Part shown: positions 1,251 through 53,889 of the stretch, piece after piece
Layout: each line of letters starts with the position of its first letter
Numbering within the stretch: the stretch's first letter is position 1
DNA from: a virus
Direction: 5' to 3' (one strand)
Virus record (IMG/VR): IMGVR_UViG_3300025626_000018
Span: 1-64,000 of that record
DNA: 64,000 nucleotides
The notes under the pieces: model-generated
Seen by the model: only the letters and a program-made list of their open reading frames with translations
Databases searched by the model: none
What the model was told of the DNA's origin: nothing
Made by a program: the position numbers and the translations under genes

Positions 1251-2023
1251 TGTTTCAATATTTTTATCATCAAACACTCCGAAAAACTGTTGCAACTTTT
1301 GGTACAATTTTCAATAATATTAAAGTAATACGGGCTGATGCTAATGGAAAAGTTTTAAACCAAACCAAGGTTCCTTTAGCTTATGCTCCAAGATCTAAGT
1401 TTCTTGAAAGAATTAGAACTACTGATAATTTAGAAACAGATACTAAAGTTGCTTTAAAGCTGCCACGGATGTCCTTTGAGATTACTTCTATATCATATGA
1501 TGCCGAAAGAAAATTACCTAAAATGAATAATTACTATCGTTATACTGATAGTACGACTAATAAAAATAAATTTTTGGCACCTGTGCCATATTTGATTTCA
1601 TTTCAACTCAATGTATATTCAAAAACACAAGATGATGCTTTACAAATAGTAGAACAAATAATACCATATTTTGCACCTCAATATAGTATTACAGTAAAAC
1701 CATTTACTGAATTCACCGATATTAAACATGATATTCCTATTACTTTGCAATCAGTAACATTTTCTGATGATTTTGAAGGCTCTCAGGAAACTCGAAGAAC
1801 TATTATATATACATTAGACTTTCAAATGAATACTTTCTTTTATGGGCCAGTATATAATCAAGGATTTATTCGTGAAGCAATTACAGATATTGGAATTCTT
1901 GGTGATACTGCCGTAGATTCTGATGGAAAAATTGCAAGAATAACTGTTACACCATCTCCTGAAAATGTAACACCACCTAATGACTTTGGATTTAATGAAG
2001 ATATAGAGTATTTTAATGAATGA
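1250..2023 (+). CDS. gp15: Proximal tail sheath stabilizer gp15
   Basis: The 257-residue product begins MFQYFYHQTLRKTVATFGTIFNNI, the usual start of gp15 in this group. gp15 caps the top of the tail tube and sheath and stabilizes the connection to the head. A conserved middle block (RMSFEITSISYDAERKLPK) and the segment around FYGPVYNQG also fit the family. It overlaps gp16 by 8 bp, and the order 13-14-15-16-17-18 is that of T4. Confidence 0.88.
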   Translation: MFQYFYHQTLRKTVATFGTIFNNIKVIRADANGKVLNQTKVPLAYAPRSKFLERIRTTDNLETDTKVALKLPRMSFEITSISYDAERKLPKMNNYYRYTDSTTNKNKFLAPVPYLISFQLNVYSKTQDDALQIVEQIIPYFAPQYSITVKPFTEFTDIKHDIPITLQSVTFSDDFEGSQETRRTIIYTLDFQMNTFFYGPVYNQGFIREAITDIGILGDTAVDSDGKIARITVTPSPENVTPPNDFGFNEDIEYFNE

Positions 2024-2393
2024 TTCTGATAATGTAAATAATGATTTTGAATATTCCAGAAAAACATATTATGACCTAATTGAAAAGGGTAATAATGCAC
2101 TTGAAGAAATGATGGAAGTTGCAAAAGCATTAGAGCATCCTCGCGCCTTTGAGGTTGTTTCTGGGATGATAAAAAATATTTCTGATGTAAATGATCGATT
2201 AATGGATTTACATAAAAAGAAAAAAGAATATAATTCAAAAGGCAATCAAAAATCCATTGAGGGCGGAACTACTAATAATAATTTATTTTTAGGTTCTACT
2301 ACAGATTTACAGCGAATGTTGCATGATGCTGCAAAAGCTAATGATATTATTGATATGGTGAAAGTTGATAGCAATGAATCAACAACTAAATGA
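2016..2393 (+). CDS. gp16: Terminase small subunit gp16
   Basis: A 125-residue, mostly helical protein located immediately before the terminase large subunit. The central segment RAFEVVSGMIKNISDVNDRLMD and a C-terminal tail rich in charged residues match gp16 of marine T4-like phages. gp16 forms a ring that recognises concatemeric DNA and stimulates the gp17 motor. Its 3' end overlaps the first codons of the large-subunit gene by about 20 bp, so the two subunits are likely made together. Confidence 0.85.
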   Translation: MNDSDNVNNDFEYSRKTYYDLIEKGNNALEEMMEVAKALEHPRAFEVVSGMIKNISDVNDRLMDLHKKKKEYNSKGNQKSIEGGTTNNNLFLGSTTDLQRMLHDAAKANDIIDMVKVDSNESTTK

Positions 2394-3366
2394 TTCTTAT
2401 AATGGTAATCAAAATGTAAAACGTGATGGTGTTACTCAGCAATTTACAAAAGAAGAAATTACTGAATATGCTAAATGTATGTATGATCCGGTTTACTTTG
2501 CAAAAACTTATTGCAAAGTAATTCATTTAGATCGTGGTTTAGTTAACTTTGAGCTATATCCATATCAAGAAAAAATGTTTAATCATTTTAATGATAATCG
2601 CTTTTCTATTGTTTTAGCGTGTCGCCAATCAGGCAAATCTATTTCTTCTGTAGCATATATTCTTTGGTTTGCTATTTTTCATAGTGAAAAAACTATTGCA
2701 GTAATGGCTAATAAGGGCGCAACGGCACGCGAAATGCTTGGTCGTATTACTCTTATGCTAGAAAATTTACCATTCTTTTTGCAGCCTGGTTGTAAAGCAT
2801 TAAATAAAGGAAGTATAGAATTTTCTAATAACTCTCGGGTTATTGCTGCGGCAACAAGTGGATCATCTATTCGTGGTATGTCAGTTTCATTATTGTATTT
2901 AGACGAGTTTGCTTTTGTTGAAAGAGCTAGTGAATTTTATACATCTACATATCCAGTGGTTTCATCAGGTAAAGATACAAAAGTTATTATTACATCAACT
3001 GCTAATGGTATTGGCAATGTTTTCCATAAAATATGGGAAGGCGCAGTACAAGAAACTAATAATTATAAACCGTTTAGAGTTGACTGGTGGGATGTACCTG
3101 GACGAGATAAAGAATGGAAAAAACAAACAGTTGCAAATACATCTAAATTGCAATTTGACCAAGAATTTGGTAATTGCCTTAAAAGTTCTTCCCAAATTAC
3201 TATTTGTATAAATAACTATATAGCAGAAATAACTATAGGAAATTTATATGAGTGTATCCAACGAGGATCAACATCTGGTTTATCTGTTGACGAGGAAATC
3301 AGACTCGCAGCAATACGTTGGTATAACGATAGACAGACGTATGAAGCAGAGAATGGGAGACCATAA
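2374..3366 (+). CDS. gp17: Terminase large subunit gp17, N-terminal half (ATPase) fused to a split-intein N fragment
   Basis: Residues 1-267 are the packaging ATPase domain. A Walker A motif CRQSGKS is at about 83-89, Walker B LLYLDEF at about 173-179, and a coupling motif STANG follows. At codon 3175 the sequence turns from terminase (QEFGN) into CLKSSSQITI..., a Cys-started intein N fragment; the nuclease domain is absent here. ATG 2374 is preferred to the TTG at 2365. The last ~37 residues overlap the endonuclease gene that starts at 3248 and probably have no function. The partner half is encoded at 3913-5037; protein trans-splicing would give a 532-residue terminase. Confidence 0.93.
   Translation: MNQQLNDSYNGNQNVKRDGVTQQFTKEEITEYAKCMYDPVYFAKTYCKVIHLDRGLVNFELYPYQEKMFNHFNDNRFSIVLACRQSGKSISSVAYILWFAIFHSEKTIAVMANKGATAREMLGRITLMLENLPFFLQPGCKALNKGSIEFSNNSRVIAAATSGSSIRGMSVSLLYLDEFAFVERASEFYTSTYPVVSSGKDTKVIITSTANGIGNVFHKIWEGAVQETNNYKPFRVDWWDVPGRDKEWKKQTVANTSKLQFDQEFGNCLKSSSQITICINNYIAEITIGNLYECIQRGSTSGLSVDEEIRLAAIRWYNDRQTYEAENGRP
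3175..3258 (+). other. Split-intein N fragment (IntN) in gp17
   Basis: The fragment starts with the catalytic Cys1 directly after the extein residue Asn267 and runs about 28 residues (CLKSSSQITI ... GNLYECI). This very short N part is the hallmark of atypical split inteins such as the metagenomic AceL-TerL intein, whose N fragment I recall as 25 residues with the same C...I.I.DLY layout. The exact C-terminal border is uncertain because no conserved motif marks it and the reading frame continues into the endonuclease gene. Confidence 0.85.
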
Positions 3367-3958
3367 AAGATCAAAAAGATTTCGCGAAGATGAATTTACT
3401 GTAGAAATACTAGAAAAAAGTAGTGATAGAAATTACATTAATGAACGTGAAGAATATTGGATTCGTAAATTAGACACGTTTAATAATGGTTTAAATGAAT
3501 CTTGGTCTGGAAAAGGACATGGGCACAATTCTCCTAATTTTACTACTGAAGGATATTTGTACTCAGAAGAATCGCGGAAAAAAATGAGTGAGTCTGCTAA
3601 AAAAAGAGGCGGGGGCTCAGAACAAATGAGACAGTTGTCTTTGAATCAATGGAAGGATCCAAAAATAAGACAACACCATTCAGAAATTAGAAAAGGTAAA
3701 AGGTTGAAACCACCGAAAATTTCTGATAAAAAAGTAATTGAAATTAGAACTCATTATGAAAAAGAAAAATTAAATTGTGAAAAAGAAATTAAAGAATACA
3801 ATGAAAATGCAAAGAAAAAAGGATGGCTTCAAAAAACTCCATCATCACATTTTGCAAGAAAATATGCAGAACACTATAAATGCTCAAATGTCACATTAAA
3901 GGGTATTATTGAATGGAAAACACGAACACACGTTCTCCCATCAATATACAAATCTTAA
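3248..3958 (+). CDS. GIY-YIG homing endonuclease between the two terminase halves
   Basis: A 236-residue free-standing endonuclease. The GIY-YIG core is present as VYLLT followed by QYVGIT (residues ~11-27), then a conserved Arg in DRRMKQRMGDHK and a catalytic Glu in EREEYWIRKLDTFNNG. A NUMOD3-like segment (YSEESRKKMSESAKK) and a basic, possibly DNA-binding C-terminus follow. It has its own ribosome site (TAGGAAA before ATG 3248), overlaps the upstream half-gene by 119 bp and the downstream half-gene by 46 bp. The likely role is to cut intein-less terminase alleles of competing phages and spread the split-intein cassette. Confidence 0.9.
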   Translation: MSVSNEDQHLVYLLTRKSDSQQYVGITIDRRMKQRMGDHKRSKRFREDEFTVEILEKSSDRNYINEREEYWIRKLDTFNNGLNESWSGKGHGHNSPNFTTEGYLYSEESRKKMSESAKKRGGGSEQMRQLSLNQWKDPKIRQHHSEIRKGKRLKPPKISDKKVIEIRTHYEKEKLNCEKEIKEYNENAKKKGWLQKTPSSHFARKYAEHYKCSNVTLKGIIEWKTRTHVLPSIYKS

Positions 3959-4239
3959 CACCATCCGGTTTTCAATCGTTTGATGGAGTAAAAAGATATT
4001 GGCATGAAAAATATTTAAAATTTATTTTTGAAGACAATACAGCTGTTGAATGCGCGGTTGATCACAGATTCATTATTAATGATAAAGAAGTCTATGCCCG
4101 GGATGTGCTCATAGGCGATAACATAGGTAAGATTGTATCGCGTATCAGTAAAATAAACGAAGGTGACTATTTTTATGATCCGGTAAATGTAGGTAATGGA
4201 AGTGTGTATAATCATGACCAAGGGTTTGTATCACATAAC
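3913..4239 (+). other. Split-intein C fragment (IntC) in gp17
   Basis: The 109-residue fragment starts MENTNTRSPINIQILTPSGF, contains the block-B-like AVDHRFI with its His, the segment VYARDVLIGD, and ends YDPVNV...GFVSHN, the intein C-terminal His-Asn. Its layout closely follows the C fragment of the AceL-TerL intein as I remember it. No endonuclease domain is embedded; that function is in the separate neighbouring gene. Confidence 0.88.
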
Positions 4240-5037
4240 ACTTTTTTTGGAACGGGCGATACTTTAATTGGTGCCGAAGTTTTGTTATCTCTTAGAAGAA
4301 AAGATCCAATAAACGTTACTCGGGATAATGTTTATGTATATGAGGAATCTAAAAAAGATCACCAATATATAATGACAGTAGATGTTGCGAAAGGTAGGGG
4401 TCAAGACTATAGTACATTTACTATAATTGATGTTAGTGTAAATCCATTTAAACAGGTAGCTACATATAGAGATAATCATATTTCTCCATTATTATATCCA
4501 AATATTATTTATAAATATGCTATGTCATATAATGAAGCAATGGTTGTTATAGAATCTAATGATGCTGGGCAAGTTGTATGTAATGGTTTATATCATGATT
4601 TAGAATATGAAAATATGTTTGTTGAATCGGCAGTAAAGTCTGGTTCACTTGGTATGTTAATGACACGCAAAGTTAAAAGAATTGGTTGTTCTTCATTTAA
4701 AGATTTAATGGAAAATAATAAATTAGATATTATGGATGAAAATACCATATTAGAAATTTCTACATTTACGGCGCGGGGGCAATCATATGAAGCATCTGAT
4801 GGAAATCACGATGATTTAGTAATGAATTTAATATTATTTTCTTATTTTGTTGGAACATCATTTTTTAATGAATTAACTGATATTAGTATTAAAGATTTGA
4901 TGTTTGAACAACGAATGAAAGAAATAGACGATGATATTGTCCCATTCGGTTTTTACGATGATGGGCAATCTACAGTAATTGATGATACTACATTTCATTC
5001 TAGTTGGGCTATAGAAGAACACCAGAATGATTGGTAA
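3913..5037 (+). CDS. gp17: Terminase large subunit gp17, C-terminal half (nuclease) led by a split-intein C fragment
   Basis: Residues 1-109 are an intein C fragment ending in the conserved FVSHN, followed by extein residue Thr (the +1 nucleophile) and FFGTGDTLI, which continues the terminase exactly where the upstream half stops. The nuclease domain carries the T4-type acidic residues: DVAKGRGQDYS (Asp401 of T4), VIESNDAG (Glu458) and DGNHDDLV (Asp542). A good ribosome site (AAAGGG) lies 9 nt before ATG 3913. The C extein is 265 residues. After trans-splicing the protein should be a complete head-packaging motor. Confidence 0.93.
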   Translation: MENTNTRSPINIQILTPSGFQSFDGVKRYWHEKYLKFIFEDNTAVECAVDHRFIINDKEVYARDVLIGDNIGKIVSRISKINEGDYFYDPVNVGNGSVYNHDQGFVSHNTFFGTGDTLIGAEVLLSLRRKDPINVTRDNVYVYEESKKDHQYIMTVDVAKGRGQDYSTFTIIDVSVNPFKQVATYRDNHISPLLYPNIIYKYAMSYNEAMVVIESNDAGQVVCNGLYHDLEYENMFVESAVKSGSLGMLMTRKVKRIGCSSFKDLMENNKLDIMDENTILEISTFTARGQSYEASDGNHDDLVMNLILFSYFVGTSFFNELTDISIKDLMFEQRMKEIDDDIVPFGFYDDGQSTVIDDTTFHSSWAIEEHQNDW

Positions 5038-5055
5038 AGTCTAAACTTAAATTCT

Positions 5056-5063
5056 TATAAATA
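5056..5063 (+). promoter_or_regulatory. T4-type late promoter TATAAATA before gp18
   Basis: The octamer TATAAATA, the consensus recognised by the gp55 late sigma factor in T4, lies 66 bp before the gp18 start. A good ribosome site (AAAGGA) precedes the gene. Confidence 0.75.
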
Positions 5064-5128
5064 ATAGTAATTGAATATAACCTTATTATGAAATACATAT
5101 AATTTTACTCTCTGCAAAGGAATAAGAC

Positions 5129-7108
5129 ATGGCCATAGGAAATCCATCTGTGTCACCAGCAGTTGTTACAAGAGAAATTGACTTAACCAACGGTGTACCA
5201 AACGCTAGCTCATCTACCGGAGCTATGGTTGGTAATTTTCGTTGGGGTCCAGTTGACCAGCCAATTCTTGTAAGCAACGAAGGCACACTAGTAAGCGTTT
5301 TCGGAAATCCTTCTGATGAAACATCAGTAGATTTTCATACAGCTTCATACTTTTTAAAATACTCTAATAGCCTACAGGTAGTTAGAGAAGTATACGAAGC
5401 CGGTACTGAAGCAACAGCAACAGCTGCAGTTGATTCTGACGGACTCGTATTAACACTCACAGTTTCAGAAGGCGGTGAAGATTATGTCACTGCCCCTGCC
5501 GTAACAATTACCGCTGCTGATAGCGGCGATACACCAACATTAACAGCTACAATTTCTGGGGGTGCGGTTACAGCGCTCACAGTAACTCCGGGCGCAACAC
5601 CATTTTTATACAATTCAAATCCAACAATTACTATTTCTGGTGGCCAAGGGTCTGATATTGTAAATGCTTATGGTGCCGACACTGCTCGTACCCCTACATC
5701 AATTCCGCTTGTTAAAAATGATGATAATTGGGATGTTCAAGAATCAACGCTTAAAGCAGCCAGCCATGAAATTATCGCGAGATATCCTGGCGCACTTGGC
5801 AATTCATTAAAAGTTGAAGTATGCTCCGATACCGGATTTGCTGCTTGGGCATTTAAAGGCGAATTTGATGCTGCTCCTGGGTTATCACCATTTGCTAGTA
5901 ATGTTGGCGCAACTGGTACGGATGAAGTACACGTTGCAGTAATTGATGAAGACGGCGTAATTTCTGGTACAAAAGGCAAAGTTCTTGAAACTTTTGCATT
6001 TGTTTCGGTTGCAACTAATGCTAAAACATCAAATGGCACTGGCAATTATATTTTAGATGTGATTAACAGAGGTTCGGCATTTATTCATATGGCGAATATT
6101 CCAGGTGTTGTTACACCAGCTCAAGCTGTAAACGGTGTTGTACACGCAACATTTACAGGCGCTGCAAAAGCTATTTCTTTAACAAATGGTAGCGATAGCC
6201 GGGCATTGGGTACCGCACAATATATTAGCGGGTTTGACCAATTTGCAGACAAAGACACTACATTGGTAGATTTCTTAATTGCACCTGGAATGGCCCTTGC
6301 TGCTGATCAAACAACCGTAGTTAATGATTTGGTGGCAAAAGTACAAGGTACTAATGGCAGAAAAGATTGCGTTGTTATTGCATCACCAAATAGAAACTCA
6401 GTAGTTGGTGTAGCAAAAGCTAATATTAATGCAGCAATTATTGCGAATGTATCCTTTACACGTAGTTCATATTTAGTAGTTGACAACAACTATCTAAAAG
6501 TCTATGATAAATTTAACGATAAATACATTTATATTCCAGCAGCATCTTCTACAGCCGGTATTATGGCTTCTACAGATCTTAATGCTGCTGCTTGGTATTC
6601 ACCAGCGGGTACACGCCGTGGGCAATATTTGGGTGTTACCGGGCTATCATACAATGCATCTAAAACAGAAAGAGATGAATTGTATAAAGCGGGAATCAAC
6701 CCTGTAGCAAATATTCCAGGAAATGGTGTATTGTTATTTGGTGATAAAACTCACTTAAACAGACCCTCCGCATTTGATAGAATCAACGTTCGTAGACTCT
6801 TCTTGTTGTTGGAAAGATCTATTGCGGCAGCGTCGCAAAATATTCTTTTCGAATTCAACGACGAATTTACTCGTGCAGAATTCTTAAATATTGTAGAGCC
6901 AGTATTAAGAGATATTAAAGGTAGAAGAGGTATCACTGATTTTTCAGTTATATGCGACGAAACCAATAATACCGGCGAGATCATTGATGCTAACCAATTT
7001 GTAGCCTCTATGTTCATTAAACCAGCAAGATCAATTAACTTCATCACTCTAAATTTCGTAGCTGTTCGCTCCGGTGTTTCGTTTGAAGAAGTTGTTGGCG
7101 CAGCATAA
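5129..7108 (+). CDS. gp18: Tail sheath protein gp18
   Basis: This 659-residue protein is the contractile sheath subunit. The N-terminus (SPAVVTREIDLTNGVPN, then GNFRWGPVDQP) and the C-terminal block ending with NFITLNFVAVRSGVSFEEV are characteristic of gp18. Between about residues 88 and 190 there is a Thr/Val/Gly-rich insert with repeated VTAPAVTIT / NSNPTITISGG phrases, which looks like a beta-rich domain exposed on the sheath surface. It follows a T4-type late promoter and precedes the tube gene, the standard order. Confidence 0.93.
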   Translation: MAIGNPSVSPAVVTREIDLTNGVPNASSSTGAMVGNFRWGPVDQPILVSNEGTLVSVFGNPSDETSVDFHTASYFLKYSNSLQVVREVYEAGTEATATAAVDSDGLVLTLTVSEGGEDYVTAPAVTITAADSGDTPTLTATISGGAVTALTVTPGATPFLYNSNPTITISGGQGSDIVNAYGADTARTPTSIPLVKNDDNWDVQESTLKAASHEIIARYPGALGNSLKVEVCSDTGFAAWAFKGEFDAAPGLSPFASNVGATGTDEVHVAVIDEDGVISGTKGKVLETFAFVSVATNAKTSNGTGNYILDVINRGSAFIHMANIPGVVTPAQAVNGVVHATFTGAAKAISLTNGSDSRALGTAQYISGFDQFADKDTTLVDFLIAPGMALAADQTTVVNDLVAKVQGTNGRKDCVVIASPNRNSVVGVAKANINAAIIANVSFTRSSYLVVDNNYLKVYDKFNDKYIYIPAASSTAGIMASTDLNAAAWYSPAGTRRGQYLGVTGLSYNASKTERDELYKAGINPVANIPGNGVLLFGDKTHLNRPSAFDRINVRRLFLLLERSIAAASQNILFEFNDEFTRAEFLNIVEPVLRDIKGRRGITDFSVICDETNNTGEIIDANQFVASMFIKPARSINFITLNFVAVRSGVSFEEVVGAA

Positions 7109-52642: not shown

Positions 52643-52693
52643 ACATTATATTGTCACATAATTAACACATAATTGATTATTATAAAATTATAA

Positions 52694-52721
52694 GTTACAA
52701 CTTGCATTAAATTTTTATAAG
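52694..52721 (+). promoter_or_regulatory. Possible promoter of the tmRNA
   Basis: GTTACA, 16 nt, TATAAG, ending about 12 bp before the start of the acceptor-piece sequence. Weaker than the other promoters. Confidence 0.45.
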
Positions 52722-52790
52722 TATCTTTGTTAACGTTGAAGCGACGTGGACACATACTGGACTCGGGTGCGAATCCCGACAGCTCCACCA

Positions 52791-52880
52791 TAAGCACTTG
52801 ATAGGTGACGACCTATATTCGATGAAGTAGATAAGGATTTAGCTACCTGATGCTATGGAGAAGTTTCAAGTGTTTTTGAT
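52791..52880 (+). other. Intervening segment of the tmRNA precursor
   Basis: This 90-nt loop joins the acceptor CCA end to the coding-piece 5' end and is removed during maturation. It has its own fold: AGCACTTG pairs with CAAGTGTT, ATAGGT-GACG-ACCTAT is a perfect hairpin (52801-52816), and GTAG..CTAC forms a third. Confidence 0.75.
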
Positions 52881-52962
52881 GGGGCTGACATTTAGGATCG
52901 ACAGGTGTGAAAGTGGAAGTGGAGTTAACCGGATGATCGCGTATAGATCAAACACTATAACT

Positions 52963-53007
52963 GCAAATAATAACTTTGCACCATCTGGTTATGCACTAGC
53001 TGCATAA
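52963..53007 (+). other. tmRNA tag reading frame
   Basis: GCA to TAA encode the tag ANNNFAPSGYALAA. The ALAA end is the usual degradation signal recognised by ClpXP. No start codon is used; translation resumes at GCA. Confidence 0.9.
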
Positions 53008-53094
53008 ACACAGGGAGCTGGCCACTTGCTTAGCAACAGAAAAGTGGCATATTTAATATTTAAAATTTTTATAAAATCAGAAAGAATATACGAA

Positions 53095-53889
53095 ATGCGT
53101 AATTTACTTATCACATCTGCACTTGTAACAGGATTTGCTGGTGCAGCATATGCTGAAACTACAGTACTGCCATATGGCCCAACATTATCTGGTAAAGCTG
53201 TTTTAACATTTGCAGAAACCGCTGCAGATAAATGGGCCGCAACTCCAACATTCGATCTTGGTATTGATGTTGCTGGTATTTCAACTGTAAACCTTGACTT
53301 TTCTGCAACAGACGGAAATGGTGTTACTCTTGATAATTGGACAATTGGCACACAAGTAGCCGGTATCGATATTGCAATTGGCGATGACAATGGTGTAATG
53401 CCAGGTGCCGAAGGCGAGCAAACACTTACTGCTCCAGCAATGGCTGAATCTGTACAAGTAAATATGGGTGCAATTTCTGCGGCTATCGGATTTACTGATA
53501 TTGCTGCCGATATTACAGATATTAGCAATGTACAGGGCGCAATTGTACTCCCATCCGTAGCTGGAATTGAAATTACTGCCGCTGCTGATTATAACTTAAA
53601 TACTGAAAATACTGTATTTGGCGCCGGTGTTACTGGTGTTGATCTTGGTGTTGCCGCAGTTGGCGGTGCAGTATCTTATGATGTAGACACTACAGCAATA
53701 GGTTATGAGCTTGTAGCAAAGCAATCTGTAATTACAACATATATTAATGGTGACGACACTGATATGCTACAAAATATTGGTGGCGAATTTGTATATGGTA
53801 TTGCGGGCGCTGAGCTTACCACAGGCGCAAATTATAATTTAAATAGTGAAGATTTTTCTCCTTCAATTGAATTAAGCTTTGCATTCTAA
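53095..53889 (+). CDS. Outer-membrane beta-barrel (porin-like) protein
   Basis: A 264-residue secreted protein. ATG 53095 is chosen because a clean signal peptide follows (MRNLLITSALVTGFAGAAYA, cleaved before Glu21); the longer frame begins inside the tmRNA. The mature part is a chain of alternating Gly/aromatic beta strands and ends FSPSIELSFAF, with the C-terminal Phe required for outer-membrane insertion by BamA. The rest has a porin-like rather than an adhesin-like composition. It lies directly behind the tmRNA without a visible promoter. Confidence 0.82.
   Translation: MRNLLITSALVTGFAGAAYAETTVLPYGPTLSGKAVLTFAETAADKWAATPTFDLGIDVAGISTVNLDFSATDGNGVTLDNWTIGTQVAGIDIAIGDDNGVMPGAEGEQTLTAPAMAESVQVNMGAISAAIGFTDIAADITDISNVQGAIVLPSVAGIEITAAADYNLNTENTVFGAGVTGVDLGVAAVGGAVSYDVDTTAIGYELVAKQSVITTYINGDDTDMLQNIGGEFVYGIAGAELTTGANYNLNSEDFSPSIELSFAF

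Follow-up and report, generated by a model that had tools for sequence, protein, structure and literature searches.

Related split inteins and interrupted terminase genes

The characterised atypical split intein AceL-TerL consists of an N-terminal fragment (IntN) of 25 amino acids (aa) and a C-terminal fragment (IntC) of 104 aa, with Cys at positions 1 and +1, and GOS-TerL consists of fragments of 37 and 115 aa with Ser1 and Cys+1 (PMC11766414); both are split after helix alpha-1 (PMC13014065). Here we analyse a related locus in a 64,000-nucleotide (nt) window, positions 1-64,000 of IMGVR_UViG_3300025626_000018, a viral contig of 72.9 kb. Unless given for another phage, coordinates are window positions, and the window features described lie on the + strand. 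At positions 2374-5037, the large terminase gene (TerL, gp17) is divided into an open reading frame (ORF) for the ATPase half, a GIY-YIG endonuclease gene, and an ORF comprising an IntC and the nuclease half. The best explanation, to which we assign a probability of about 0.88 from sequence comparisons, is a TerL that matures by trans-splicing and whose split point houses a homing endonuclease gene. This locus resembles AceL, GOS-TerL and the related Cat intein in its TerL extein (by name), its homologous intein, its short IntN split after alpha-1 and its terminal His-Asn, and it shares Cys1 with AceL. It differs in having Thr rather than Cys at +1, in an IntN frame that reaches 63 aa through overlap with the endonuclease gene, and in an IntC of 109 aa, compared with 104 and 115 aa.

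Split inteins accompanied by free-standing homing endonucleases were reportedly described as 'fractured genes' by Dassa et al. in 2009, in an original set that is said to have featured a Vsr-like endonuclease family. The window locus has the same order of half gene, endonuclease gene and half gene, but its endonuclease is of the GIY-YIG type and overlaps both half genes. It also resembles collaborative homing, in which a free-standing endonuclease is paired with a splicing element at one site, although the partner there is a group I intron (PMC2988022) and here a split intein.

Closer counterparts are found in cultured phages. Aeromonas phage PX29 (gp17A/gp17B, GU396103) carries an intein at the equivalent TerL position, annotated in GenBank as 'putative N-intein' and 'putative GIY-YIG endonuclease and C-intein' in gp17; its endonuclease, however, belongs to the SegE-like type (PF19835) and shares one reading frame with IntC as a fusion, its +1 residue is Cys, and its intein is only ~30% identical. 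Vibrio phages K469 and 1.244.A have the same TerL intein site and split, but with the GIY-YIG domain fused to the N half, as it also is at this site in Vibrio phage VP-1, which has a second intein at Walker A. In Providencia phage PSTRCR_127 and Serratia phage 92A1 a free SegE-like GIY-YIG ORF overlaps both halves at the same site. Vibrio phage EniLVp02 has the site without an endonuclease, its half genes overlapping directly, and by-eye comparison places its IntC start codon where the endonuclease starts in the others. Thus, two GIY-YIG subfamilies, PF01541 and SegE-like PF19835, occur at one TerL split point in different phages. A sequence-only reading of the window had regarded the unit of half gene, homing nuclease and half gene as unusual; this rarity was overstated, since PX29 was already annotated in this way and the unit is also present in cultured Vibrio, Providencia and Serratia phages. 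The basic layout was known before, and the window locus adds to a known kind of selfish element.

Organisation of the TerL locus

The first ORF encodes the ATPase half of TerL as an N-extein of 267 aa (2374-3174) ending in QFDQEFGN, which matches PF03237 (Terminase_6N; E 2.3e-17) and phrog_5989 (terminase large subunit; 1.3e-60). It is followed by an IntN core of 28 residues, CLKSSSQITICINNYIAEITIGNLYECI (3175-3258), with the Cys1 codon at 3175; Cys1 is invariant in 10/10 N halves of this TerL intein site, as are the flanking F, Q and E. The IntN frame extends 63 residues past the N-extein junction, and its last ~35 residues lie inside the endonuclease gene, in an overlap of 119 nt. This 35-residue C-terminal read-through with its stop (3259-3366) is out of frame in the endonuclease gene. 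The IntN of ~28 residues proposed by the sequence-only reading therefore stands as a conserved core and not as the end of the frame, since the ORF runs 35 codons further.

The GIY-YIG homing endonuclease gene (3248-3958; 236 aa) matches PF01541 (E 3.3e-9; 40.5 bits against a cut-off of 22.6) and phrog_314 (homing endonuclease; 1.5e-15). Within its catalytic domain (3272-3487) the expected Tyr, Tyr, Arg, His, Glu and Asn are all present, Y12, Y23-V-G25, R30, R35, H39, E68 and N83 being invariant in 8 homologues, and the predicted structure of the domain matches that of I-TevI (Foldseek probability 1.00, E 3.5e-3; predicted local distance difference test score, pLDDT, of the model 73.5). The third ORF overlaps the 3' end of the endonuclease gene by 46 nt and encodes an IntC of 109 residues (3913-4239) with a block-B His51 and a terminal Ser-His108-Asn109. 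The C-extein that follows begins with Thr at +1 and comprises the RNase H-like nuclease half, of 265 aa plus stop (4240-5037, coding to 5034), which matches PF17289 (Terminase_6C; E 1.6e-16). Joining the exteins (267+265) gives a TerL of 532 aa. The ORF reading and the Pfam matches thus bear out the three ORFs first proposed, the junctions QEFGN/Cys and SHN/Thr, the 532-aa joined product and a separate endonuclease gene between the halves, which in fact overlaps both of them.

Two Shine-Dalgarno-like stretches were read from the sequence, TAGGAAA (3236-3242) upstream of the endonuclease ATG and embedded in the IntN alpha-1 codons, and AAAGGG (3898-3903) upstream of the IntC ATG (3913) and inside the endonuclease gene. 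Given such stretches before both internal starts, separate translation of the endonuclease and IntC ORFs is plausible.

The same anatomy is present on several other contigs as near-identical copies of the locus, and in similar form in six further marine lineages and in cultured phages, a recurrence far beyond what chance would give. Counted from the first base of the Cys1 codon, the endonuclease ATG follows after exactly 73 nt in each of the seven marine lineages found and falls within the codons of IntN helix 1. The total length of the N frame differs among these lineages (52, 54, 61 or 63 aa), and in two of them IntC starts ~100 nt past the end of the endonuclease gene and not inside it. The flanking gene order (head closure, tail sheath stabiliser, small terminase, TerL, tail sheath, tail tube, portal) is T4-like, and the source virus is a marine T4-like phage.

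Uninterrupted alleles and intein class

A search for intein-less relatives carrying the joined site, suggested by the sequence-only reading, was positive: 79 environmental IMG/VR contigs and phage C48C1 have a TerL without interruption, with the sequence QEFGNTFFGTGDTLI (QEFGN-TFFGTGDTLI at the join) or one close to it, the two exteins being joined there seamlessly. In DNA alignments of five intein-bearing/intein-free pairs, no base was gained or lost at the junction. The uninterrupted alleles and the exact DNA join indicate that the +1 Thr is the host gene's own residue. A profile search with the diverse IntC lacked conserved stretches and was replaced by the pattern HN/TFFGTG, which is independent of the remaining intein sequence; it retrieved 19 viral contigs, 19/19 of which carry the TerL split-intein element. 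The locus therefore has the composition of a fractured gene, with TerL split at an intein between two ORFs, intein-free homologues joined at that point and a free-standing endonuclease gene in between. The 146-kb record of one relative contains a single TerL.

The intein was compared with CatC, an engineered consensus of the AceL/GOS-TerL atypical split inteins. The IntN core and IntC together match CatC (PDB 6dsl_B) with a phmmer E of 6.7e-15, and an IntC profile matches it with E 1.2e-16. Pfam and NCBIfam intein models scarcely detect the window intein. Across 11 C halves, with identities down to ~30%, IntC residues I14, T16, G19, H51, G104, H108 and N109 are invariant, and the +1 residue is Cys or Thr throughout the members. 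The residue set of a class 1 intein is complete (Cys1, block-B His51, terminal His108-Asn109 and +1 Thr), and the IntN is short, with a conserved core of 28 residues and a downstream start codon at +73 nt in the seven lineages. CatC homology and the invariant Cys1, block-B His and terminal His-Asn support, as had been proposed, membership in the short-N atypical TerL split inteins (AceL/GOS/Cat).

Selection on the intein and the endonuclease

Ratios of nonsynonymous to synonymous substitution (dN/dS), obtained from pairwise Nei-Gojobori counts with synonymous sites near saturation in some pairs, were 0.12-0.27 for the endonuclease in the region after the overlap and 0.07-0.32 for IntC. Both the intein and the endonuclease are under purifying selection. 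In five informative pairs, endonuclease dS was 0.14-0.26 in the IntN-frame overlap (3248-3366) versus 0.75-1.5 downstream; the low values could stem from dual coding, from recent transfer or from a signal at the DNA level. Because most substitutions in the overlap hit the third codon position of the endonuclease and the tail varies in length, the 35-aa IntN tail is treated as a by-product, the dS evidence being partly confounded by transfer.

Spread of the element between phages

In a TerL extein tree of 52 rows, four of which bear the intein (the window, L016, L019 and L020), the intein-bearing TerLs did not form one clade (approximately unbiased test, p=0.0003). When the set was widened to eight sequences, representing seven lineages, 7 gains or losses were required, and well-supported branches forced 6 of these, in a quick tree with support values from the Shimodaira-Hasegawa-like approximate likelihood ratio test (SH-aLRT) only; clustering by intein state in this tree was barely above that of shuffled labels. 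Between lineages, with L019/L020 excluded, nucleotide identity reached its maximum in IntN and the first part of the endonuclease (84-95%), compared with 61-79% in the flanking 240 nt of extein on each side.

The pair L019 and L020 provides the clearest trace of exchange. Their IntN and endonuclease are 98% identical, with dS of ~0.07 or less; their exteins are ~85% identical, with dS of 0.71-0.86. The shared tract, of ~0.8 kb, starts between 16 nt upstream and 56 nt downstream of the N-extein/IntN junction, and its end lies 672-806 nt past Cys1; IntC starts at +744, so the tract reaches at most about 60 nt into IntC. This exchange thus transferred IntN and the endonuclease with, at most, the beginning of IntC. 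The claim of separate transfer rests on this tract and not on topology tests between IntC and the endonuclease: the IntC data do not reject the grouping of the endonuclease tree (p 0.33), and the endonuclease data reject one IntC-like grouping (p 3e-11) that was chosen after the identities had been seen. Taken together, the tree conflict and the transfer tract argue that the endonuclease gene has moved between alleles of its site, and they support horizontal movement of the element between phages. The mobile cassette of the sequence-only reading gains from these results and from the patchy distribution; the endonuclease may move the whole cassette or mainly itself with IntN, as in L019/L020.

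Proposed mechanism and alternative explanations

According to the trans-splicing explanation, the two TerL half genes would be translated separately, and the short IntN (~28 functional residues) and the 109-residue IntC would associate into one intein domain. Attack by Cys1, transfer to Thr+1 and cyclisation of Asn109 would then yield a large terminase of 532 aa (~60 kDa) with the junction peptide QEFGNTFFGTGDTL, joined as in the intein-free relatives. During co-infection, the GIY-YIG homing endonuclease would drive the element into terl alleles that are uninterrupted or that lack the endonuclease gene. The splicing reaction, the DNA cleavage, and a spread driven by cleavage instead of general recombination are what we infer, and TerL would depend on trans-splicing, the 146-kb record of one relative containing no second TerL.

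The ATPase and nuclease of TerL are separate domains and the split falls between them, so the halves could instead act as non-covalent subunits with the intein pieces as remnants; the nrdA gene of Aeromonas phage Aeh1, split by mobE, is a precedent for such genes in pieces, cited in PMC10448857 and PMC2988022. Dead inteins would decay, however, whereas here the whole IntC is under purifying selection and the catalytic residues of the intein show no variation among divergent phages, and we consider independent subunits very improbable. An interruption at the RNA level, by a group I or group II intron, has a parallel in the terminase introns of phage ICP1 (PMC10448857), but no Rfam covariance model, group I introns included, matched 2000-5200 up to E 1, and intein protein motifs are present; the intron reading was rejected. 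An assembly or frameshift artefact or a pseudogene was rejected as well, as the identical architecture occurs on many independent contigs and in cultured phages and all parts are under purifying selection. The chance that any of these last possibilities applies is negligible.

More weight is due to the idea that the endonuclease is a passenger and that ordinary phage recombination, not homing, spreads the element, although we still regard it as unlikely. Any recombination could produce a tract such as that of L019/L020, which covers IntN and the endonuclease and stops in IntC, and the cleavage site of a free-standing GIY-YIG enzyme may lie far from the gene that encodes it (PMC2988022). Against a passenger role, the endonuclease is under purifying selection and retains every GIY-YIG catalytic residue, two GIY-YIG subfamilies (PF01541 and SegE-like PF19835) occupy the same split point in different phages, and the codon at which the element is inserted is identical in seven scattered marine lineages. 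Trans-splicing with endonuclease-driven spread is thus preferred, and several observations weigh against it. The L019/L020 tract ends in IntC, so the endonuclease sometimes travels without the full intein. The tree alone does not separate gains from losses, and some of the patchiness may reflect losses. On its own, IntC is poorly modelled by AlphaFold (pLDDT 46), and with Thr at +1, in place of the Cys of the characterised AceL-TerL and GOS-TerL (PMC11766414), splicing rate or efficiency could differ.

A broader and more tentative possibility is that the TerL split point has repeatedly served as a landing site at which a single intein lineage acquired different GIY-YIG endonuclease families, and that the endonuclease with IntN can be replaced there separately from IntC. 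If so, the states observed (no endonuclease, endonuclease fused to IntN, endonuclease fused to IntC, and a free gene overlapping both halves) would form a readable series of endonuclease invasion creating and maintaining short-N split inteins. The marine loci constitute a coherent family of rare short-IntN split inteins, from seven lineages and about 20 contigs. Their Cys1/Thr+1 pair is unlike that of either characterised TerL member, matching empty alleles exist, and the endonuclease gene extends into both half genes. This family makes the origin and spread of split inteins in an essential phage gene directly testable, and it offers new short-IntN candidates for protein labelling.

Other terminase inteins and a tmRNA in the window

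Inteins also occur elsewhere in T4-like TerL. In the Escherichia Krischvirus phages kaaroe and vB_EcoM_G2494 (L184, 1045-4156, and L182, 1042-4153) TerL is intein-split at Walker B (IYIDE/C...HN/CAFI), and the N half carries a long additional domain, with cysteines resembling those of zinc fingers and a nuclease-like end, fused to IntN; this is another fractured terminase, at a different codon. Vibrio phage vB_VmeM-32, phage SRB7757, Campylobacter phage CP21 and Vibrio phage VP-1 carry TerL inteins at Walker A and/or Walker B. The Walker A and Walker B inteins are contiguous in some phages and split in others, and three distinct intein sites were observed in T4-like TerL. Apart from TerL, the window contains a permuted tmRNA at 52676-53098 (ARAGORN tmRNA*, tag ANNNFAPSGYALAA), which matches the Rfam families tmRNA_permuted (103 bits; cut-off 47) and alpha_tmRNA (72 bits; cut-off 50) and suggests an alphaproteobacterial host or origin.

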